Shown here one piece after another: positions 1 through 6,977 of a stretch of 7,235 nt of DNA. The stretch comes from Nitrospirota bacterium (GTDB lineage: Bacteria > Nitrospirota_A > Leptospirillia > Leptospirillales > Leptospirillaceae), in contig JAKCCY010000134.1 of assembly GCA_021838765.1 (NCBI GenBank), positions 1 to 7,235 on the forward strand, given 5' to 3'. Position 1 is the stretch's first letter. Every line of letters starts with the position of its first letter. The notes below the pieces were generated by a model, which made no database searches, was not told the DNA's origin, and was given only the letters and a program-made list of their open reading frames with translations. The translations under genes were made by a program, and so were the position numbers.

Positions 1-270
1 CTCCGGTTGAGGTTCCTCGTTCCGGCGACCTTTACAACCATGGCCTATATTCTTTTCCTTGGCGGAGGTCTTCTGATGAGGGAGGGAAAATCTTCCCCTG
101 CTGTCTCACCGGCTCTTTTAAACAAAATTCACGGTCTTCTGGGAAGGGATCTCGGCGTCTCAACCTTTGCCCGTAGACTCATCACCGAGCCCCTGATGGC
201 CATTGCCCGTACCATCAGGTCGCTTACGATCAAACCCGGAGACCTTTCCGTCAGGGATCGGGAACTTTGA
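1..270 (+). CDS. 3' end of a membrane protein gene, possibly NuoL/DabB-like subunit (partial)
   Basis: The frame is open from the first base, so the real start lies upstream and only the last 89 codons are visible (TGA at 268-270). The fragment begins with one hydrophobic segment, roughly bases 10-80, which would be a last transmembrane helix. A charged, amphipathic tail of about 60 residues follows and probably lies along the membrane face or in the cytoplasm. The stop codon shares one base with the next start (TGATG), which indicates translational coupling to the NuoM-like gene. By position before a NuoM-like gene and dabA, the likeliest identity is the ion-conducting DabB subunit of the NuoL/ND5 type (PF00361). 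That is inferred mainly from context: the catalytic core of the family is outside the window, and the tail has only a loose resemblance to NuoL C-termini. Another membrane subunit of the same complex is possible. Confidence 0.5.
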   Translation, partial: LRLRFLVPATFTTMAYILFLGGGLLMREGKSSPAVSPALLNKIHGLLGRDLGVSTFARRLITEPLMAIARTIRSLTIKPGDLSVRDREL

Positions 271-1679
271 TGAAAGACCCTTTACTCCTGACCATCCTGT
301 TGCTCCTACCTATTTTTTCGATGGTGCTGAACTTCCTTTCCGGAAAAAAAGAGGATCCATTCAACCGGGAAAGCCATTCCCTGGCCCGTTTGTCAAAGCT
401 CTGGCCAATGATTCTCTTTTCTCTTGTCGCCGCCGTTCTGGGAAAACAGCTTGAAGCGCCGCTGACATTTACAATTCTTGCATCGCTTCCTCTTCTTTTG
501 TTTCTTCCGCTCGATGACACAATAGACCCTCTCCGAAACACCCGAACGATCTCGTCACTTCTGACGATTTTCTTTGCGTCGGGCTTTCTGATCTCTCCCG
601 ACTCGCTCTGGGCAACCCTGTTTTGGGAAGGATTACTCATATCCCTTCTCTTCTCCGGAACATTCGGGAGAATCACAAAGGTCGATGATATTTTTCGTAC
701 AAGCGGGGTTCCCTTCCCCCTTTTGATTTCCGCCCTTTTATTTCCGGCTTCCCAGTGGTTGTCGGGAACCCTTCCCGGACAACACATCCATGTTTCGCTT
801 CTCTCTTTCACGACTGGAATCGTTGCACTCGGACTCTTTCTGCCTTCGGCCCCATTCATGAAATGGCTCCTTCTTTTCCCGGATGACAAACTGACGGCCA
901 GAAGCTATTTCCAGCGGGTAGCGCTCACGCTGGTCGCGACAGATGGCCTCATGAGATTCATCCTTCCCCAGCAGTCTCTTGCCGGCAGATCGTTTTTATT
1001 GTCCCATGGACACCTGACACTCTTGTCGATGCTTCTCGTGATATCGGCGCTTCTCGCCCAGATCCAGGGACTGGCTCTTGCCTTTAGTGAGCCGGTTCTC
1101 TTTCGCCGAGTGGCCTACCTGACATTCTCCCAGTCGACACTTCTTGCCACCGCCATCCTTCTTGGAGGCAGCCATCGGGAAACCATCCTGACCCTTCTGT
1201 CCGTATCGCTCATCTCATGCACTGTCACCATCGGCATGCCCCTGTTCCATATCGAGCTCCAAACCCGGCACAGGACCCTTTCAAGCCTTGGTGGCCTCCT
1301 GGTCAACATGCCCAGGACTGCGATCCTCATGGCTCTGGGAAGCATCGCCTTTTCAGGTTTTCCAGGATTTTCCCTCGCGGCGGCCTTTTCCTTTTTTGCT
1401 TTTGACAGGTGGGCGATTCCTTACCTTCTCCTCTCACTCTTTCTTGTAACGATCACCGGGATCCTTCTCGGCAGAACGCTCGGCAATCTTTTCCTTGGAG
1501 AGGAACCTAAAGCCTCTTACCGGCCAAGAGACTTGTCCCTGTGGTCTTTCTCCCTGGGGATCCTTCTACTGCTTCCGATCACCCTGCTGGCGTTCTACCC
1601 CCCAAGCTCCGGACACGGACTCTTTCACCGCCCAGGCTTCAATCAGTCCCTTTCCATAAAGACAGGATCTTCAAAATGA
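270..1679 (+). CDS. NuoM/ND4-like proton-conducting membrane subunit of a DAB-type carbon uptake system
   Basis: This is a 469-residue, very hydrophobic protein with about 14 predicted membrane helices. The antiporter-like family of complex I (NuoL/M/N, Mrp) is recognisable. FWEGLL at 118-123 carries E120 at the place of the essential TM5 glutamate of NuoM. APFMKWL at 194-200 matches the PFHTWLP region. RRVAYLTFSQ at 279-288 matches the KLVAYSSVSH region. The stretch from about 306 to 380, with LGG at 340-342, MPR at 347-349 and GFPG at 363-366, follows the NuoM C-terminal half. No other complex I genes are nearby, and dabA overlaps the 3' end by ATGA, so the protein probably serves the DAB complex rather than NADH dehydrogenase. 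The lysines used for proton transfer in NuoM TM7 and TM8 seem to be replaced. ATG 270 is chosen over the in-frame TTG at 267: it has GGGA at 260-263 and touches the previous stop. The family call is firm; the exact partner role is inferred. Confidence 0.82.
   Translation: MKDPLLLTILLLLPIFSMVLNFLSGKKEDPFNRESHSLARLSKLWPMILFSLVAAVLGKQLEAPLTFTILASLPLLLFLPLDDTIDPLRNTRTISSLLTIFFASGFLISPDSLWATLFWEGLLISLLFSGTFGRITKVDDIFRTSGVPFPLLISALLFPASQWLSGTLPGQHIHVSLLSFTTGIVALGLFLPSAPFMKWLLLFPDDKLTARSYFQRVALTLVATDGLMRFILPQQSLAGRSFLLSHGHLTLLSMLLVISALLAQIQGLALAFSEPVLFRRVAYLTFSQSTLLATAILLGGSHRETILTLLSVSLISCTVTIGMPLFHIELQTRHRTLSSLGGLLVNMPRTAILMALGSIAFSGFPGFSLAAAFSFFAFDRWAIPYLLLSLFLVTITGILLGRTLGNLFLGEEPKASYRPRDLSLWSFSLGILLLLPITLLAFYPPSSGHGLFHRPGFNQSLSIKTGSSK
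1664..1679 (+). promoter_or_regulatory. Shine-Dalgarno and ATGA stop/start overlap that set the dabA start
   Basis: AGGAT at 1664-1668 lies seven bases before ATG 1676-1678. The ATG overlaps the TGA (1677-1679) of the NuoM-like gene. This is the classic layout for translational coupling of subunits made in fixed proportion, and it decides against the longer dabA reading from 1541. Confidence 0.8.
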
Positions 1680-4600
1680 ACAATGCCCTGACACCTGCCA
1701 GCATCGAACTGAGGTCACGGATCCGTCTGGCACTCTCCATGATCCCCACAGCCTGGCCGCTGGACGGTTTCATCCACCATAACCCCCTCCACGGACTGAC
1801 CGACCTCCACTTCACGAAAGCCCTTTCACAGGGGGCCACCCTGTTTGGGGGAGGCGTGTGGCCGACCCGCTCCTATCTGAGGGATCAGTTCAAAAAAGGA
1901 TCCCTGACCCGCTCCGCCCTTCGAAAAACCCTTCTGGAGGCGAATGTCCTTCTGAAAAGCGAAAGCACTGATCCCGGAGTCGAACTCGATTCTCCAAACG
2001 ACGCCGGGCTGCCTTCACTGACACTTTCCCGGATATTCATGTCGGAGCTCCTTGTTGATCCGCCAACACCTGTGTTTTGGGAGAGGGACTGGGACCAATC
2101 CCTTCCCGGTGAAGAGACGGAAGACCCAGCATGGGATTCGATCATCGACGAGCTTTGTCAATCTGGAGAAGAACTCGGATTGCTCCAGGACAGAAAAGTG
2201 GTCAGGAAAAACGTTGCGGCGATTGCCCGAAAGGTCAGGGATCTCCATAAACTCCTCACCCCTCAAAGGAAGCTTTCCGGCAGCGCCTTTTTCCCTTTCA
2301 CCTTCAAGGAGAGATCCCATGGAGGCCATCTCTTTTTCGAGGACGGACTGCAATCCGATCCCCTCCATCATCTGAACACCTTAATCGATGGCATCTCTCC
2401 CGATGAGTTCTCTATCGACCGGCTGAAACCCACTCCCCTTGAATGGCTTGACCGTCTTGCCGGCACATCCCTTGTCTCCCGTCTCGACAATGCGATGAGC
2501 GAGGCGGCAGCCCTGTTCATGGATAATGGACAGGCGTTCTGGACACTTCCCGACCGGGAGAAGGGATTCTTCTCCCTCTTTAAAACCCGATGGAGCGATC
2601 CTCTCCTCGCACCGGATCCAATCTCCTCATGCTCTTCGGGGCTCGCGTCCCTTCCCGACTCCCCCGAAGAGGCAATGCTCTGGGTTCTGAAAGAGATGGG
2701 CATTCCTTCCTCGGAATGGGTGGCCCTTTTCTATCGGGAGTTTTCCTTCCTTCCGGGTTGGTCCGGAACCATCCGCTGGATGTCCGAGTCCCACGAACAC
2801 CGATCCTTCCCCCCCATCGACCCGACCGAATGGATCTCCCTCCGGCTCTGCACCGAATATTTTCTGGGGGAACCTGTAACACGGTCTCTCTGGAAAATTC
2901 CCTTTTCAAGGCCAGCGATTTCAGGGATTTGCAAAGAACATCCGGAAGAGGCCGCCATTCGCCTCCTGGGACTCCATCCCGACCTTCCGCGAGGGGTTGT
3001 CCGAAAAATCGAGGAAGTGACCCTGGAGAGGCCTTTCCAAAGCGTATCGTTTGGTTACGAGGAGCTCTGGGAAGAGATCGTCTCCTCCCACCTGAGAAAC
3101 CAGCCCTTTTTAGACCTGATCCTCTCCCTCTCCCGACTCTGGCTCTGGGAAGAAGGACGTCTTCCTGATCCTTCCGCACTCACCATCGAGCAACTGGCCT
3201 CCCTGATGAACGCGTTTTCCCGGATCCGAAGGGAGAACCTTCCCCTCTGGGGGCTTATGGCCCTTGAGCATCATTACCGGCAAGAACTTCTGGGCCAGAT
3301 CGGCAGCAAGCCCGAAAGCCGCTCCTCCACAGAAGGCTCTCCCCCCAAAAACCAGGTTCTCTTCTGTATCGACGTCCGGTCCGAATCTGTCAGAAGACAT
3401 CTTGAAACACTGGGACCTTACGAAACACGTGGTGTTGCGGGATTTTTTGGTCTTCCCATCGCATTTCGGTCATTTGGTGCGATGATCTTCCACCGTCAGT
3501 CGCCCCCGACGATTTCTCCCAGGATTTTTCTGTGGGAGCTTCACCGTCCCTTTGCCGTGCGATCGATGCGCAGCTTTTTTCAGGGACGAAGGATCTGGCG
3601 ATGGCTGAACCATCTTCTCCACGAACTGAAAAACAATGTGGTGACGCCTTATGTTCTGGTCGAGGCAATCGGCTGGATATCGGGAGTTCCTTTCTTTGGA
3701 AGAACCCTTTTCCCGAGGCGGTACGGAGAACTCTCCGAGACCGTTGCCGCATCCGTCCTGCCAGAGGTGCCCACGATGGTTCCGCTGGACAAGATTTCGG
3801 AAAAGGAAGCCCGGGAAATCGTCGAACAGGAGCAACGCCAAACCATCCGGCAGGTCGTCGCCGAGAAATACAGCCAACGGAATCTTCCCAGAATCCCCGG
3901 ACGGGCGGTCGAGGAATTCCGGTTTCTGATCCTCTCCACCGATCATGAAAAAGAAAATCCCCAAACCAGCCTCGCGAAACTGATCGGACTCTCCCCCAAA
4001 GAGGAAGAAGCCCTGATCCGCGATTTGCGGGAAATTCACCATCTGACACCCCGGATGGCGGCCAACAGGATCGAGGAGCTCGCGCGCGTGGGACTCACCC
4101 CGAACGAACAGGCCAATCTTGCCGAAACGGTTCTCACCGTCTCGGGACTTCGTCACAACCTGGGACGGCTCGTGCTTTTTCTTGGCCACCGAAGCCGGTC
4201 AGAAAACAATCCTTTTGAATCGGCCCTCGACTGCGGCGCCTGCGGAGGTCGAGACGGAAGCCCCAACGCACGGGTCTCGGCGGGACTTCTGAACCGTCCC
4301 GCCGTTCGGGAAATCCTCCAGAAAAGATCGATACACATTCCATCGGACACCTTTTTCATGGCCGGTGTCCATGAAACCACGACAGACCGCTTCTTCTTCT
4401 ATGATCAGGAGGACTGGCCAGAAAGCCATCTCCCGGAAATCGGCGTCCTGATCAAGGACCTCCGTACGGCAGGAACACTGTCGGCGATGGAGCGGCAAAC
4501 CACATTTCCCGACTCTTCTCCACAATCACCGAACATGTCACAGTCCTCTCTTGTCAAACGGGCCCACGACTGGGCAGAGGTCCGGCCGGAATGGGGACTT

Positions 4601-5137
4601 TCCGGAAACGCGGCCCTCGTGATCGGGAATCGCTCCCTCACATCAGGACGGAATCTCTCAAACCGTGTGTTTCTCCAGGAGTACAACCATTCCGACGACC
4701 CCCGGGGGAAATGGCTCGAGACACTCCTTTCCGGACCCATGGTGGTCGCATGGTGGATCAATCTCGAACATTACTTTTCTTCCGTCGACCCCAGAGTCTG
4801 GGGCTCCGGAAGCAAGGTTTCCCATAATGTGACCGGCAGGCTGGGTGTCGTGGTTGGACATGAAGGGGACCTGAGGTTTGGACTTCCACGACAGACTGTG
4901 ATGGACAAGAACAGAAAACTCAGACATGAGCCGCTCAGGCTCCTCGTCATTGTTGAAACCACAAGGGAGAGGATGGAATCCGCCCTTCTGGCCTCCCTGT
5001 CCATCCGGAAGATTTTCGATCTGGAGTGGGCAACCCTTGTTGTCAAGGAGCCGGAACAGCCAGGTTTCTGGCGATATGAAGCGGGAGGAGCCTGGATTCC
5101 AGAAGAGGCTCAAACACCAATCGCCTTTCGAATATAA
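1676..5137 (+). CDS. dabA: DabA, probable inorganic-carbon transporter subunit (UPF0753/DUF2309), long form
   Basis: DabA is a zinc-dependent cytoplasmic protein with a beta-carbonic-anhydrase-like site. With a membrane partner it is thought to convert CO2 to bicarbonate in one direction, driven by an ion gradient. The 1153 residues carry the family hallmarks. W27-L41 is the N-terminal WPLDGFIHHNPLHGL block. CIDVRSE at 564-570 supplies C564 and D566. H838 and DCGACGG at 852-858 supply the other zinc ligands, H838 and C853. The spacings C-x-D and H-(14)-C equal those of Halothiobacillus DabA2 (C351, D353, H524, C539). The C-terminal signature includes INLEHYF at 1028-1034, GSGSKVSHNV from about 1043 and HEPLRLLVIVE from 1084. 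No membrane helix is evident, which fits a peripheral subunit. The protein is much longer than the roughly 830-residue proteobacterial form. An upstream ATG at 1541 lies inside the preceding gene in another frame; ATG 1676 is preferred because it has AGGAT at 1664-1668 and forms an ATGA overlap. Confidence 0.95.
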   Translation: MNNALTPASIELRSRIRLALSMIPTAWPLDGFIHHNPLHGLTDLHFTKALSQGATLFGGGVWPTRSYLRDQFKKGSLTRSALRKTLLEANVLLKSESTDPGVELDSPNDAGLPSLTLSRIFMSELLVDPPTPVFWERDWDQSLPGEETEDPAWDSIIDELCQSGEELGLLQDRKVVRKNVAAIARKVRDLHKLLTPQRKLSGSAFFPFTFKERSHGGHLFFEDGLQSDPLHHLNTLIDGISPDEFSIDRLKPTPLEWLDRLAGTSLVSRLDNAMSEAAALFMDNGQAFWTLPDREKGFFSLFKTRWSDPLLAPDPISSCSSGLASLPDSPEEAMLWVLKEMGIPSSEWVALFYREFSFLPGWSGTIRWMSESHEHRSFPPIDPTEWISLRLCTEYFLGEPVTRSLWKIPFSRPAISGICKEHPEEAAIRLLGLHPDLPRGVVRKIEEVTLERPFQSVSFGYEELWEEIVSSHLRNQPFLDLILSLSRLWLWEEGRLPDPSALTIEQLASLMNAFSRIRRENLPLWGLMALEHHYRQELLGQIGSKPESRSSTEGSPPKNQVLFCIDVRSESVRRHLETLGPYETRGVAGFFGLPIAFRSFGAMIFHRQSPPTISPRIFLWELHRPFAVRSMRSFFQGRRIWRWLNHLLHELKNNVVTPYVLVEAIGWISGVPFFGRTLFPRRYGELSETVAASVLPEVPTMVPLDKISEKEAREIVEQEQRQTIRQVVAEKYSQRNLPRIPGRAVEEFRFLILSTDHEKENPQTSLAKLIGLSPKEEEALIRDLREIHHLTPRMAANRIEELARVGLTPNEQANLAETVLTVSGLRHNLGRLVLFLGHRSRSENNPFESALDCGACGGRDGSPNARVSAGLLNRPAVREILQKRSIHIPSDTFFMAGVHETTTDRFFFYDQEDWPESHLPEIGVLIKDLRTAGTLSAMERQTTFPDSSPQSPNMSQSSLVKRAHDWAEVRPEWGLSGNAALVIGNRSLTSGRNLSNRVFLQEYNHSDDPRGKWLETLLSGPMVVAWWINLEHYFSSVDPRVWGSGSKVSHNVTGRLGVVVGHEGDLRFGLPRQTVMDKNRKLRHEPLRLLVIVETTRERMESALLASLSIRKIFDLEWATLVVKEPEQPGFWRYEAGGAWIPEEAQTPIAFRI

Positions 5138-5158
5138 ACCTACAAAAAAGAGGATCCA

Positions 5159-5500
5159 ATGGCAGGACTGAAGCTTTATTCCGTCAAAAAAGTGGAAATC
5201 ATCACCGCAGGGGAACACCTTCCCTTTCTCAGGGAACTCCTCGACGATGTCAAGGTGTCCGGCTACACCATCATTCCCGATGTCTCGGGAAAGGGCCACA
5301 GCGGCTTCCATGAAGCGCAGCTCATGTTCAACGACATGAACATTCTGGTCATGGTCATTACCGTTGTCCCCGAATCCTGGGTCGAGACGATCCTCTCGGG
5401 GCTCTCGCCTCTTTTTGAGCGTTACTCCGGGGTGGTCTTTGTATCGGATGTCCAGGTCAGCAGGAGGGAGTATTTCGGGGGGACAGGCCAGACGACCTGA
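5159..5500 (+). CDS. PII-like signalling protein linked to the DAB system
   Basis: This 113-residue protein belongs to the PII superfamily of small trimeric sensors. It starts with the usual first beta strand (KKVEIITAGEHLPFLRELLDD, about 10-30). A short glycine-rich loop follows (VSGKGHSGFHEA, 42-53) in the T-loop position, then strands at 62-70 (ILVMVITVV), a second helix (72-88) and GVVFVSDVQVSR at 91-102. It differs from GlnB/GlnK: the uridylylated tyrosine region of the T-loop is not recognisable, and the nucleotide-binding B-loop (TGKIGDGKIF type) is replaced by ERYSGVVF. PII-like proteins sit beside carbon uptake genes in other autotrophs (SbtB with SbtA; the bicarbonate-responsive CPII near carboxysome genes). 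A regulatory role on DabA or the membrane subunits is therefore plausible, but inferred. The gene begins 21 bases after dabA; AGGA at 5151-5154 gives a short four-base spacing to the ATG. It is the last gene of the operon. Confidence 0.88.
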   Translation: MAGLKLYSVKKVEIITAGEHLPFLRELLDDVKVSGYTIIPDVSGKGHSGFHEAQLMFNDMNILVMVITVVPESWVETILSGLSPLFERYSGVVFVSDVQVSRREYFGGTGQTT

Positions 5501-5517: not shown

Positions 5518-6054
5518 TTACCGGGACGGGCTTTCTTCGTGGAAGGCCACGAGAGGATGAAGGGCGATCTCGTTATCCAGTGCATGATAGAAACGAAGAA
5601 TACTGTTTCGGGTTGCCCCCAGATCAGGAAGTGACCCGTCAGCCTTTCCCGACATGGACAGCCTGACGCCTTCGGAGATGGGGGTTTTGGTCAGCGTCAT
5701 GGTCTCTTTCTTTCTCCAGAATGTCGAAGGAACCTTGATCCGGTAGGTCCCGCCTGTTCCTGACACCGTCAGCGTCTCGATCGTCCAGCCCCGAAAATGC
5801 TTGATCGCCCGCATGATGTTCTGATCCAGAACAATAACATCCCCTTCATAGTTTCGGTCCATCAGCTCGGGGAGGGGATATCCCTGGCCAGTCCAGGCCC
5901 GGTTCAGGGAGAAGTAGACGGATAATCGCTTCATGACTCCCGGAGGATTCCACAGATTCGTGTTGTTCGAGATCAGGTCCCCTCCGAGATAGACAAAACA
6001 GGCCAGACAGAAAACGGCCAAACCGATGAAAGTCCAGCGCACCGGTCCGCTCAT
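5518..6054 (-). CDS. Unknown protein with one N-terminal membrane anchor, coupled to trxB
   Basis: I do not recognise this 178-residue protein. A short polar start with one arginine (R6) leads into a single hydrophobic helix at about 7-24, so it is probably anchored in the inner membrane with residues 26-178 outside. The soluble part is mixed alpha/beta in look, has many basic residues around 130-140 (FWRKK), and contains no recognisable catalytic motif. The helix holds C16-L-A-C19, a CxxC pair that is unusual inside a membrane segment; a lipobox reading (cysteine at -3) is poor. The ATG at 6054-6052 overlaps the trxB stop as ATGA and follows AGGGGG with a six-base gap. This start is therefore preferred over an in-frame ATG at 6105 that would overlap trxB by 55 bases. 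Co-translation with trxB hints at a link to redox or envelope upkeep, but this is only context. Confidence 0.75.
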   Translation of the reverse strand: MSGPVRWTFIGLAVFCLACFVYLGGDLISNNTNLWNPPGVMKRLSVYFSLNRAWTGQGYPLPELMDRNYEGDVIVLDQNIMRAIKHFRGWTIETLTVSGTGGTYRIKVPSTFWRKKETMTLTKTPISEGVRLSMSGKADGSLPDLGATRNSILRFYHALDNEIALHPLVAFHEESPSR

Positions 6055-6977
6055 CCATGGCCCCCTGCTTCGAGAAATCTCTCGGCATCCATGGCCGCCA
6101 TGCACCCGGAACCGGCTGCGGAAATTGCCTGGCGGTAGGTCGGATCCTGAACATCTCCCGCCGCAAAGATACCGGGGACGGAGGTTTTGGTTCCGTCATG
6201 GGTCCGGATATAGCCGACATCGTCCATGTCGCACAGCCCTTTCACAAAATGGCTGTTGGGGGTATGGCCGATCCCGAGGAAAAAGCCCTGACAGGGAATC
6301 TCGGAGATCTCCCCCGTTACGGAGTCCTTGACCCTGACACCGGTCACCTGTCCTTTGGACACGTCAAGGACTTCGAGAACTTCCTTGTTCCAGGCAAACC
6401 GGATCTTTTCATTGGCGTGAGCGCGATCCTGCATCGCTTTTGAGGCGCGAAGACGATCCCGGCGATGGACGATGGTCACCGACTTTCCAAAACGCGTCAG
6501 AAAGATCGCCTCTTCAAGGGCTGTATCCCCACCTCCGATCACAACGATCTCCCGTTCCTTGAAAAAGAATCCGTCGCATGTCGCACAGGCCGACACACCG
6601 GCTCCCATAAGGGCTTTTTCAGACGGGAGTCCCAGATATTTGGCCGAAGCCCCGGAAGCGATAATCAGGGTTTTCGTATGGAGAACCTCATCTTCCCCGG
6701 ACAGAATGAATCCGCCTTTTTCCGGAACGACCGACTCGATTGAACGGGTCATGAACCGGGTTCCGAAGCGGAGGACCTGGGCCTTCATCCTTTCAATCAG
6801 CTCGGGCCCGGTGATCCCATCCGGAAATCCGGGAAAATTGTCCACTTCAGTCGTTGTCGTCAACTGTCCCCCATGCTGGGGACCTTCCAGAACAACAGGA
6901 GAAAGTCCGGCTCTGGCGGTATAAAGTGCTGCGGTCAGTCCCGCCGGACCGGACCCCAAAATCACGACGTCTTCCAC
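6051..6977 (-). CDS. trxB: Thioredoxin reductase (NADPH, FAD)
   Basis: This cytoplasmic flavoenzyme passes electrons from NADPH through FAD and a cysteine pair to thioredoxin, which keeps protein thiols reduced. The 308 residues match the usual bacterial length of about 310-320. The FAD-binding GSGPAG is at 8-13. GGQL at 36-39 and NFPGFP at 47-52 are also typical of the family. The redox-active pair C131-A-T-C134 is followed by D135. GGGDTA at 148-153 is the NADPH-binding fold, and HRRDRLRA at 171-178 holds the arginines that select the NADPH phosphate. The second FAD motif GIFAAGDVQD is at 269-278, followed by the conserved RQAISAAGSG block. All key residues are intact. The start is GTG at 6977-6975, chosen for the GGAGGT just upstream and because it places the first motif at the normal distance. 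It is the first gene of a minus-strand pair with the unknown membrane-anchored protein. Confidence 0.97.
   Translation of the reverse strand: MEDVVILGSGPAGLTAALYTARAGLSPVVLEGPQHGGQLTTTTEVDNFPGFPDGITGPELIERMKAQVLRFGTRFMTRSIESVVPEKGGFILSGEDEVLHTKTLIIASGASAKYLGLPSEKALMGAGVSACATCDGFFFKEREIVVIGGGDTALEEAIFLTRFGKSVTIVHRRDRLRASKAMQDRAHANEKIRFAWNKEVLEVLDVSKGQVTGVRVKDSVTGEISEIPCQGFFLGIGHTPNSHFVKGLCDMDDVGYIRTHDGTKTSVPGIFAAGDVQDPTYRQAISAAGSGCMAAMDAERFLEAGGHG

Follow-up and report, generated by a model that had tools for sequence, protein, structure and literature searches.

Organisation of the locus

The stretch of DNA that was analysed (7,235 nt, hereafter the window) contains four genes on the forward strand that form a tightly packed operon located far from any nuo genes. 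The first is the 3' end of dabB (1..270, +), comprising the last 89 codons of a NuoL-like antiporter subunit and showing 74% identity to the end of its homologue in locus L001. The dabB stop overlaps (TGATG, 268-272) the start of a gene that we refer to as X (270..1679, +; ATG at 270), which codes for a 469-aa membrane protein classed as NuoM-like on the basis of profile matches. X in turn overlaps by ATGA (1676-1679) a dabA gene of the long type (1676..5137, +; 1153 aa; PF10070, 772.4 bits against a cut-off of 25), and 21 nt separate the end of dabA from the start of a PII-like gene (5159..5500, +; 113 aa; P-II, 80.6 bits, 1.2e-22). Two genes on the reverse strand face the operon: one of 195 aa that matches no Pfam family (5518-6105, -) and has 87% identity over 191 residues in L001, and a thioredoxin reductase gene (-) which it overlaps. 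Both overlaps within the operon had been pointed out in the first-pass annotation, where the genes were taken for a DAB-type carbon pump, and both are confirmed.

The same locus was found in genome G020 with 17 mismatches over the 7235 nt, 15 of which lie at the two ends of the window, and L001 (Nitrospirae MAG YS4.bin12) has the same four genes in the same order with a DabA that is 83% identical. The dabB gene that is cut in the window is complete in G020 (L073, 7197-8918; 573 aa), where it matches PF00361 with an E-value of 2.1e-45 and has NuoL models as its best NCBIfam matches. Thus, the earlier proposals that both membrane proteins are antiporter-like and that the upstream one is NuoL-like held true. 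The membrane genes could in principle belong to Complex I or to an Mrp antiporter and adjoin dabA by chance, and their antiporter-like character would fit this. However, the genes overlap; the same order recurs in G020 and G001, both of which carry NuoM elsewhere (in G020 at 1.71 Mb, with the DAB locus at 2.23 Mb); and X is fused to DabB beside DabA in seven loci. Moreover, the multi-gene antiporter clusters of G001 lie on contigs other than that of its DAB locus, and no nuo genes were seen among the window genes or among the scanned upstream neighbours in L001, so neither of the outcomes named in the first-pass annotation as refuting it (an upstream gene unrelated to PF00361, or a full nuo operon just upstream) came about. 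We therefore regard a chance neighbourhood as hardly credible.

With regard to DabA, the sole solved relative found by sequence was 9rd0_A (DabA2). In the alignment, C564, D566 and R568 (3365..3379, +) correspond to the DabA2 zinc ligand C351 and the D353/R355 dyad, E663 (3662..3664, +) to the membrane-finger Glu444, and H838 and C853 (4187..4234, +) to the zinc ligands H524 and C539. The roles of C351, the dyad and Glu444, and that of H585 and D590 in holding the active-site water, are described in PMC13144422. All six window-like DabA sequences keep C351, D353, R355, E444, H524, C539, H585 and D590. The Cys2His zinc site, the Asp-Arg dyad and the finger Glu are accordingly intact in a PF10070 protein, in line with the DAB-type assignment. 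Elsewhere in the material, H585 is replaced (by M, V or I, as aligned) in 13 of the 21 DabA proteins that go with a separate X, D590 is Asn (as aligned) in 10 of the 19 X-less ones, and the finger Glu is Asp in four of the five DabA in the group termed 'other'.

Of DabB, the window itself contains the last 89 residues only. The five distinct window-like DabB sequences keep S256, H260, K310, S316, H339, H343 and K347 of DabB2, and the importance of the DAB2 proton-path and active-site residues has been shown by mutation (PMC13144422). Compared with the other groups, window-like DabB has Arg in place of K235, Glu at the position of I151, and Q/G in place of R182/D185; because of these replacements the proton path of window-type DabB may differ from that of DAB2.

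The PII-like protein had two solved relatives at E <= 0.001, namely 5d4n and 5d4l (E 1e-28, residues 2-103), both of which we take to be CPII. Judged by its sequence, the window protein is thus of the CPII type, CPII being its closest relative among solved structures. CPII senses bicarbonate and adenylate state, and by analogy the window protein probably does the same and tunes the pump. CPII is reportedly carboxysome-associated, going by a paper's title, whereas a BMC shell match was found in neither of the two genomes searched (G020 and G001).

Relationship of X to NuoM

Window X has no Pfam match, and its NCBIfam matches were all below cut-off, the best being EhbF (33.7 bits, 1.7e-8). At least eight relatives were found in a search of 5.8 billion proteins. 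Differences between X of the window and X of L001 are distributed over the three codon positions as 121/71/235, the pattern of a selected coding gene. Nitrospirota loci supplied more distant X proteins, and of the nine X proteins that were scanned, six pass the PF00361 cut-off and seven match the NuoM model TIGR01972 with E-values from 4e-10 to 8e-28, none of them over the cut-off of that model.

Profile comparison with hhalign gave a more direct view of the relationship. Against 15 Nitrospirota NuoM sequences, the window X family scored Prob 97.1 over X residues 176-445, three mid-sized X proteins scored 98.5 and fused X 98.4 (these forms are described below). Against a set of 29 NuoM sequences, which is not independent since it was gathered with an X profile, the window family aligned over its full length (X 2-470 to NuoM 1-496, Prob 99.1, E 8.9e-19), and fused, mid and small X reached Prob 99.6, 97.2 and 94.4, respectively; three reversed controls gave Prob 0.1. 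The AlphaFold model of window X had a pLDDT of 36.9 and is not usable as a structure. In a fold comparison of a DabB-X fusion, the listed matches all fell within residues 1-604 and none in the X part.

X occurs in four forms. The window family measures 437-473 aa. The mid form is a separate gene in other Nitrospirota (about 390-460 aa as open frames, 411-433 aa in the mid X set), the fused form (about 290 aa) is joined to the end of DabB, and the small form (about 250 aa) is found in Nitrobacter, Thiomonas, Guyparkeria and others. Fused X (as aligned) and a 253-aa X start at TM7 and so are without the TM1-6 half. The DabB-X fusions gave at least 120 matches of 811-995 aa, each covering at least 91% of the fused query, and such natural fusions argue that DabB and X act together. 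In the tree, mid, fused and small X make up one group (support 100/100) and window-type X another (100/100), and the branch uniting both groups against NuoM has a support of 94/88, with long branches flagged. Direct comparison of the window-type (long) profile gave Prob 3.4 to mid X and 35.1 to small X; small X against fused X gave 98.9. In view of that branch and the long branches flagged, a single origin of all X forms is neither demonstrated nor rejected. What the profile matches do indicate is that X is related specifically to NuoM, over its full length in the window type; its relatives elsewhere are shortened, separate or fused to DabB.

We next consider the residues of the proton channel. 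Four residues, the TM5 Glu, TM7 Lys, TM8 Lys and TM12 Glu, are what we take from the Complex I literature to be the proton residues of NuoM; some of the corresponding residues in NuoL are named in PMC13144422. In a first joint alignment the TM7 Lys was present in 14 of 15 NuoM sequences, in none of 36 X and in none of 53 fused X, and the counts for the TM8 Lys and the TM12 Glu were the same, while the proline of a G-x-P motif was kept in every sequence (15/15 NuoM, 36/36 X, 53/53 fused X). A recount on dereplicated sets, from which near copies and one misfiled fusion had been dropped, found each of the three residues in 26 of 30 NuoM (the other four rows being gapped or misaligned, apparently from wrong frames) and in 0/31 X and 0/52 fused X. 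Of the 83 proteins (X and fused X combined), none has a Lys or Glu within three columns of the TM7 or TM8 position, whereas 12 have one within three columns of the TM12 position, at least eight of these being fused X with a Glu two columns on. In a further set, the TM12 Glu was missing from 40/40 small and 44/44 mid X, as was a His that is kept in 28 of 29 NuoM. Eight of the 31 dereplicated X (10/36 before dereplication) retain the TM5 Glu, among them window X, in which the alignment to NuoM places it at E120 (codon from 627, +). Window X thus retains one of the four proton residues of NuoM and misses the other three; in addition it keeps an acidic residue, D225.

The first-pass annotation had envisaged the membrane part as a two-module unit that could move more ions per CO2 hydrated. 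According to this explanation both DabB and X carry protons, giving two or more ions per CO2 hydrated. It can draw on the placement of a NuoL-like beside a NuoM-like subunit, as in the Complex I arm, on the TM5 Glu in window X and in 10/36 X, and on seven loci in which two DabB genes precede X and the path residues are kept except S256. Against it, the TM7 Lys, TM8 Lys and TM12 Glu are missing from 31/31 X and 52/52 fused X, and fused X and the 253-aa X do not even possess the TM1-6 half. With three proton residues missing from X, a machine of two pumps appears distinctly unlikely, although X may have some proton role in view of the TM5 Glu, D225 and the Lys/Glu residues near TM12 in 12/83. 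As judged from these alignments, X is better read as a degenerate NuoM paralogue, apparently without a proton channel and with a structural or gating role.

Occurrence of X and the PII gene with long DabA

Gene order was compared across 83 loci with 84 DabA places, 75 long and 9 short. It should be underlined that the sample is uneven: L073-L076 and L078 were chosen by their X match, 60 loci were the best-ranked DabA matches, and the window, L073 and L001 are close copies. Long DabA adjoined by DabB or X was seen in 57 places, with X in 38 and DabB only in 19. A PII gene adjoins 56 of these 57 long dabA genes, so the one that closes the operon of the window is a usual companion of long dabA. 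The seven short DabA with DabB had neither X (0/7) nor PII (0/7). The 38 X loci consist of 21 with separate X, 8 scored as two DabB followed by X, 7 fused and 2 irregular. In one of the eight (L141) the two DabB are apparently one gene broken into two frames, which leaves seven tandems; the irregular ones are a fusion cut by a contig end (L082) and an X in two frames (L145). For another sixteen long DabA no adjoining DabB was scored, and four more DabA (two long and two short) are at the end of a contig. Two of the sixteen are places in L093 that are annotated with dabB, a 253-aa gene and PII, so the scoring misses small X.

Of the 19 genomes of the X-less loci, 16 carry a clear X at another place (E <= 2e-107), whereas three gave NuoM-level matches only to the X profile, which indicates that X is dispensable for long DabA. 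Among the Nitrospirota loci that were examined, X and PII accompany long DabA; they do not accompany short DabA, nor do they follow acidophily. The suggestion that the arrangement suits an acidophile consequently finds no support as far as was sampled, since numerous further Nitrospirota loci and a plasmid of Nitrobacter share the layout.

The association with long DabA raises another explanation, namely that X has no part in the coupling and acts in assembly or anchoring, either by placing long DabA at the membrane or by carrying PII. X was found only with long DabA, whose N-terminal region (group medians 459.5-554.5 against 331 in short DabA) and finger-to-H524 segment (172-176.5 against 90) are both longer. 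However, segments of the same length are present in the long DabA of the 19 X-less loci (medians 495 and 172) and hence do not depend on X, and we consider an anchoring role rather doubtful.

The survey also revealed several other arrangements. Seven loci (L130, L144, L146, L148, L149, L152 and L153) contain five genes, that is two NuoL-like dabB genes in tandem, X, dabA and PII. All tested path residues are kept in their 14 DabB proteins except S256, in place of which one copy has Thr and the other His. Long dabA without a scored DabB beside it was seen at L101, L106, L117, L121, L122, L126, L136 and L139, and in G123, G250, G095 and G086 the contig with such a DabB-less long dabA also carries a dabB-dabA-PII set, at a distance of about 9-14 kb. 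At L184 (G179, 5754-18709) a different long DabA stands between a SulP-family gene and a full antiporter row of the Mrp/Mbh type (MnhE, MbhD/E, MnhB, Oxidored_q2 and then three PF00361 proteins of 489, 703 and 503 aa); L185 (G206, by open frames) is similar, and L120 (G242) is so in part. If any DabA couples to several working antiporter modules, it may be the L184 type. G020 and G001 each have three DabA-type loci, although the copy on contig C51 of G001 was matched in two pieces, one with internal stop codons. Both genomes gave RuBisCO-family matches of up to 142 bits, which may be true RuBisCO or a RuBisCO-like protein.

Proposed mechanism and comparison with known systems

Taken together, we put a probability of roughly 0.7 on the reading that the operon encodes a DAB1-type vectorial carbonic anhydrase in which X is a NuoM-related partner without a proton channel of its own, and not a second pump. 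DabA, a cytoplasmic zinc protein resembling beta-carbonic anhydrases, would hydrate CO2 that diffuses inwards. Protons would enter through DabB, passing the membrane-finger Glu663 of DabA and making the reaction one-way, and bicarbonate would accumulate as a result. X would sit beside DabB and most likely act on DabB and DabA in a structural or gating capacity, and the PII-like protein would adjust the pump to bicarbonate and adenylate state. That X touches DabB and DabA, what it does there, how PII regulates the pump and that this organism carries out the reaction as a whole are what we infer from the genes.

A more speculative and rather unlikely extension is that the DAB1 arm consists of two antiporter-derived modules (three in some Nitrospirota), in which the NuoM-derived X relays conformational or lateral electrostatic coupling between DabB and DabA and is the switch point for PII. 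The window-type features tied to such a relay are the Glu at TM5 of both DabB and X and the Arg at TM7 of DabB.

DAB pumps are widespread and have been considered for transfer into other organisms to raise bicarbonate. The first-pass annotation described the characterised systems as two-part, which does not apply to DAB1 of Halothiobacillus neapolitanus: PMC13144422 presents it as three-subunit, with hneap_0908 as a small hypothetical transmembrane protein, and the methods text of the 2020 eLife paper (PMC7714395) files the interstitial gene under PF00361. Together with this gene, dabAB1 complements a carbonic-anhydrase-free E. coli in air (PMC7714395; PMC13144422). DAB1 (dabA1, dabB1, hneap_0908) and the window share dabB, dabA and an interstitial membrane gene, which in DAB1 is filed under PF00361, X (270-1679) lying between dabB and dabA just as the third gene of DAB1 does. 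Hence, the three-part pump was already known, and so was the PF00361 label. In the literature that was searched, no statement was found that the third DAB1 subunit is NuoM-derived, is without proton residues or is fused to DabB elsewhere. A related arrangement is seen on the Nitrobacter hamburgensis plasmid, which has dabB, a 253-aa gene, dabA and PII, and Guyparkeria has a 248-aa relative of the Nitrobacter protein. Window X and Nitrobacter X differ in extent: the former (469 aa) aligns to the whole of one NuoM set, whereas the latter (253 aa) starts at TM7.

Window X suggests what the little-studied third protein of DAB1 may be. If that subunit is a channel-less NuoM paralogue, one proton path serves the pump and the extra subunit has another job, and the family would clearly illustrate how a pump module of Complex I can lose that function once it is part of a different machine. 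The natural DabB-X fusions and the full-length X would then be ready constructs for solving the third subunit.

The pairing of antiporter-like subunits also recalls the cyanobacterial NDH-1MS, in which two such subunits, NdhF and NdhD, correspond to NuoL and NuoM. There the carbonic-anhydrase-like CupA goes with the specialised NdhF3 and NdhD3 (PMC8438413), so a carbonic-anhydrase-like protein and two antiporter-like subunits are common to both systems. However, NDH-1MS is a complex of 20-21 subunits driven by ferredoxin oxidation, whereas the window has no redox subunit, and the likeness is one of architecture only.

DAB2 (DabA2-DabB2, PDB 9rd0) shares with the window the zinc site, the finger Glu and most of the DabB proton-path residues. 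In contrast to the window type, which adds X and PII, it is described as two-subunit with a short DabA (870-aa chain), and its K235 and I151 are replaced in window-type DabB by Arg and Glu, respectively.
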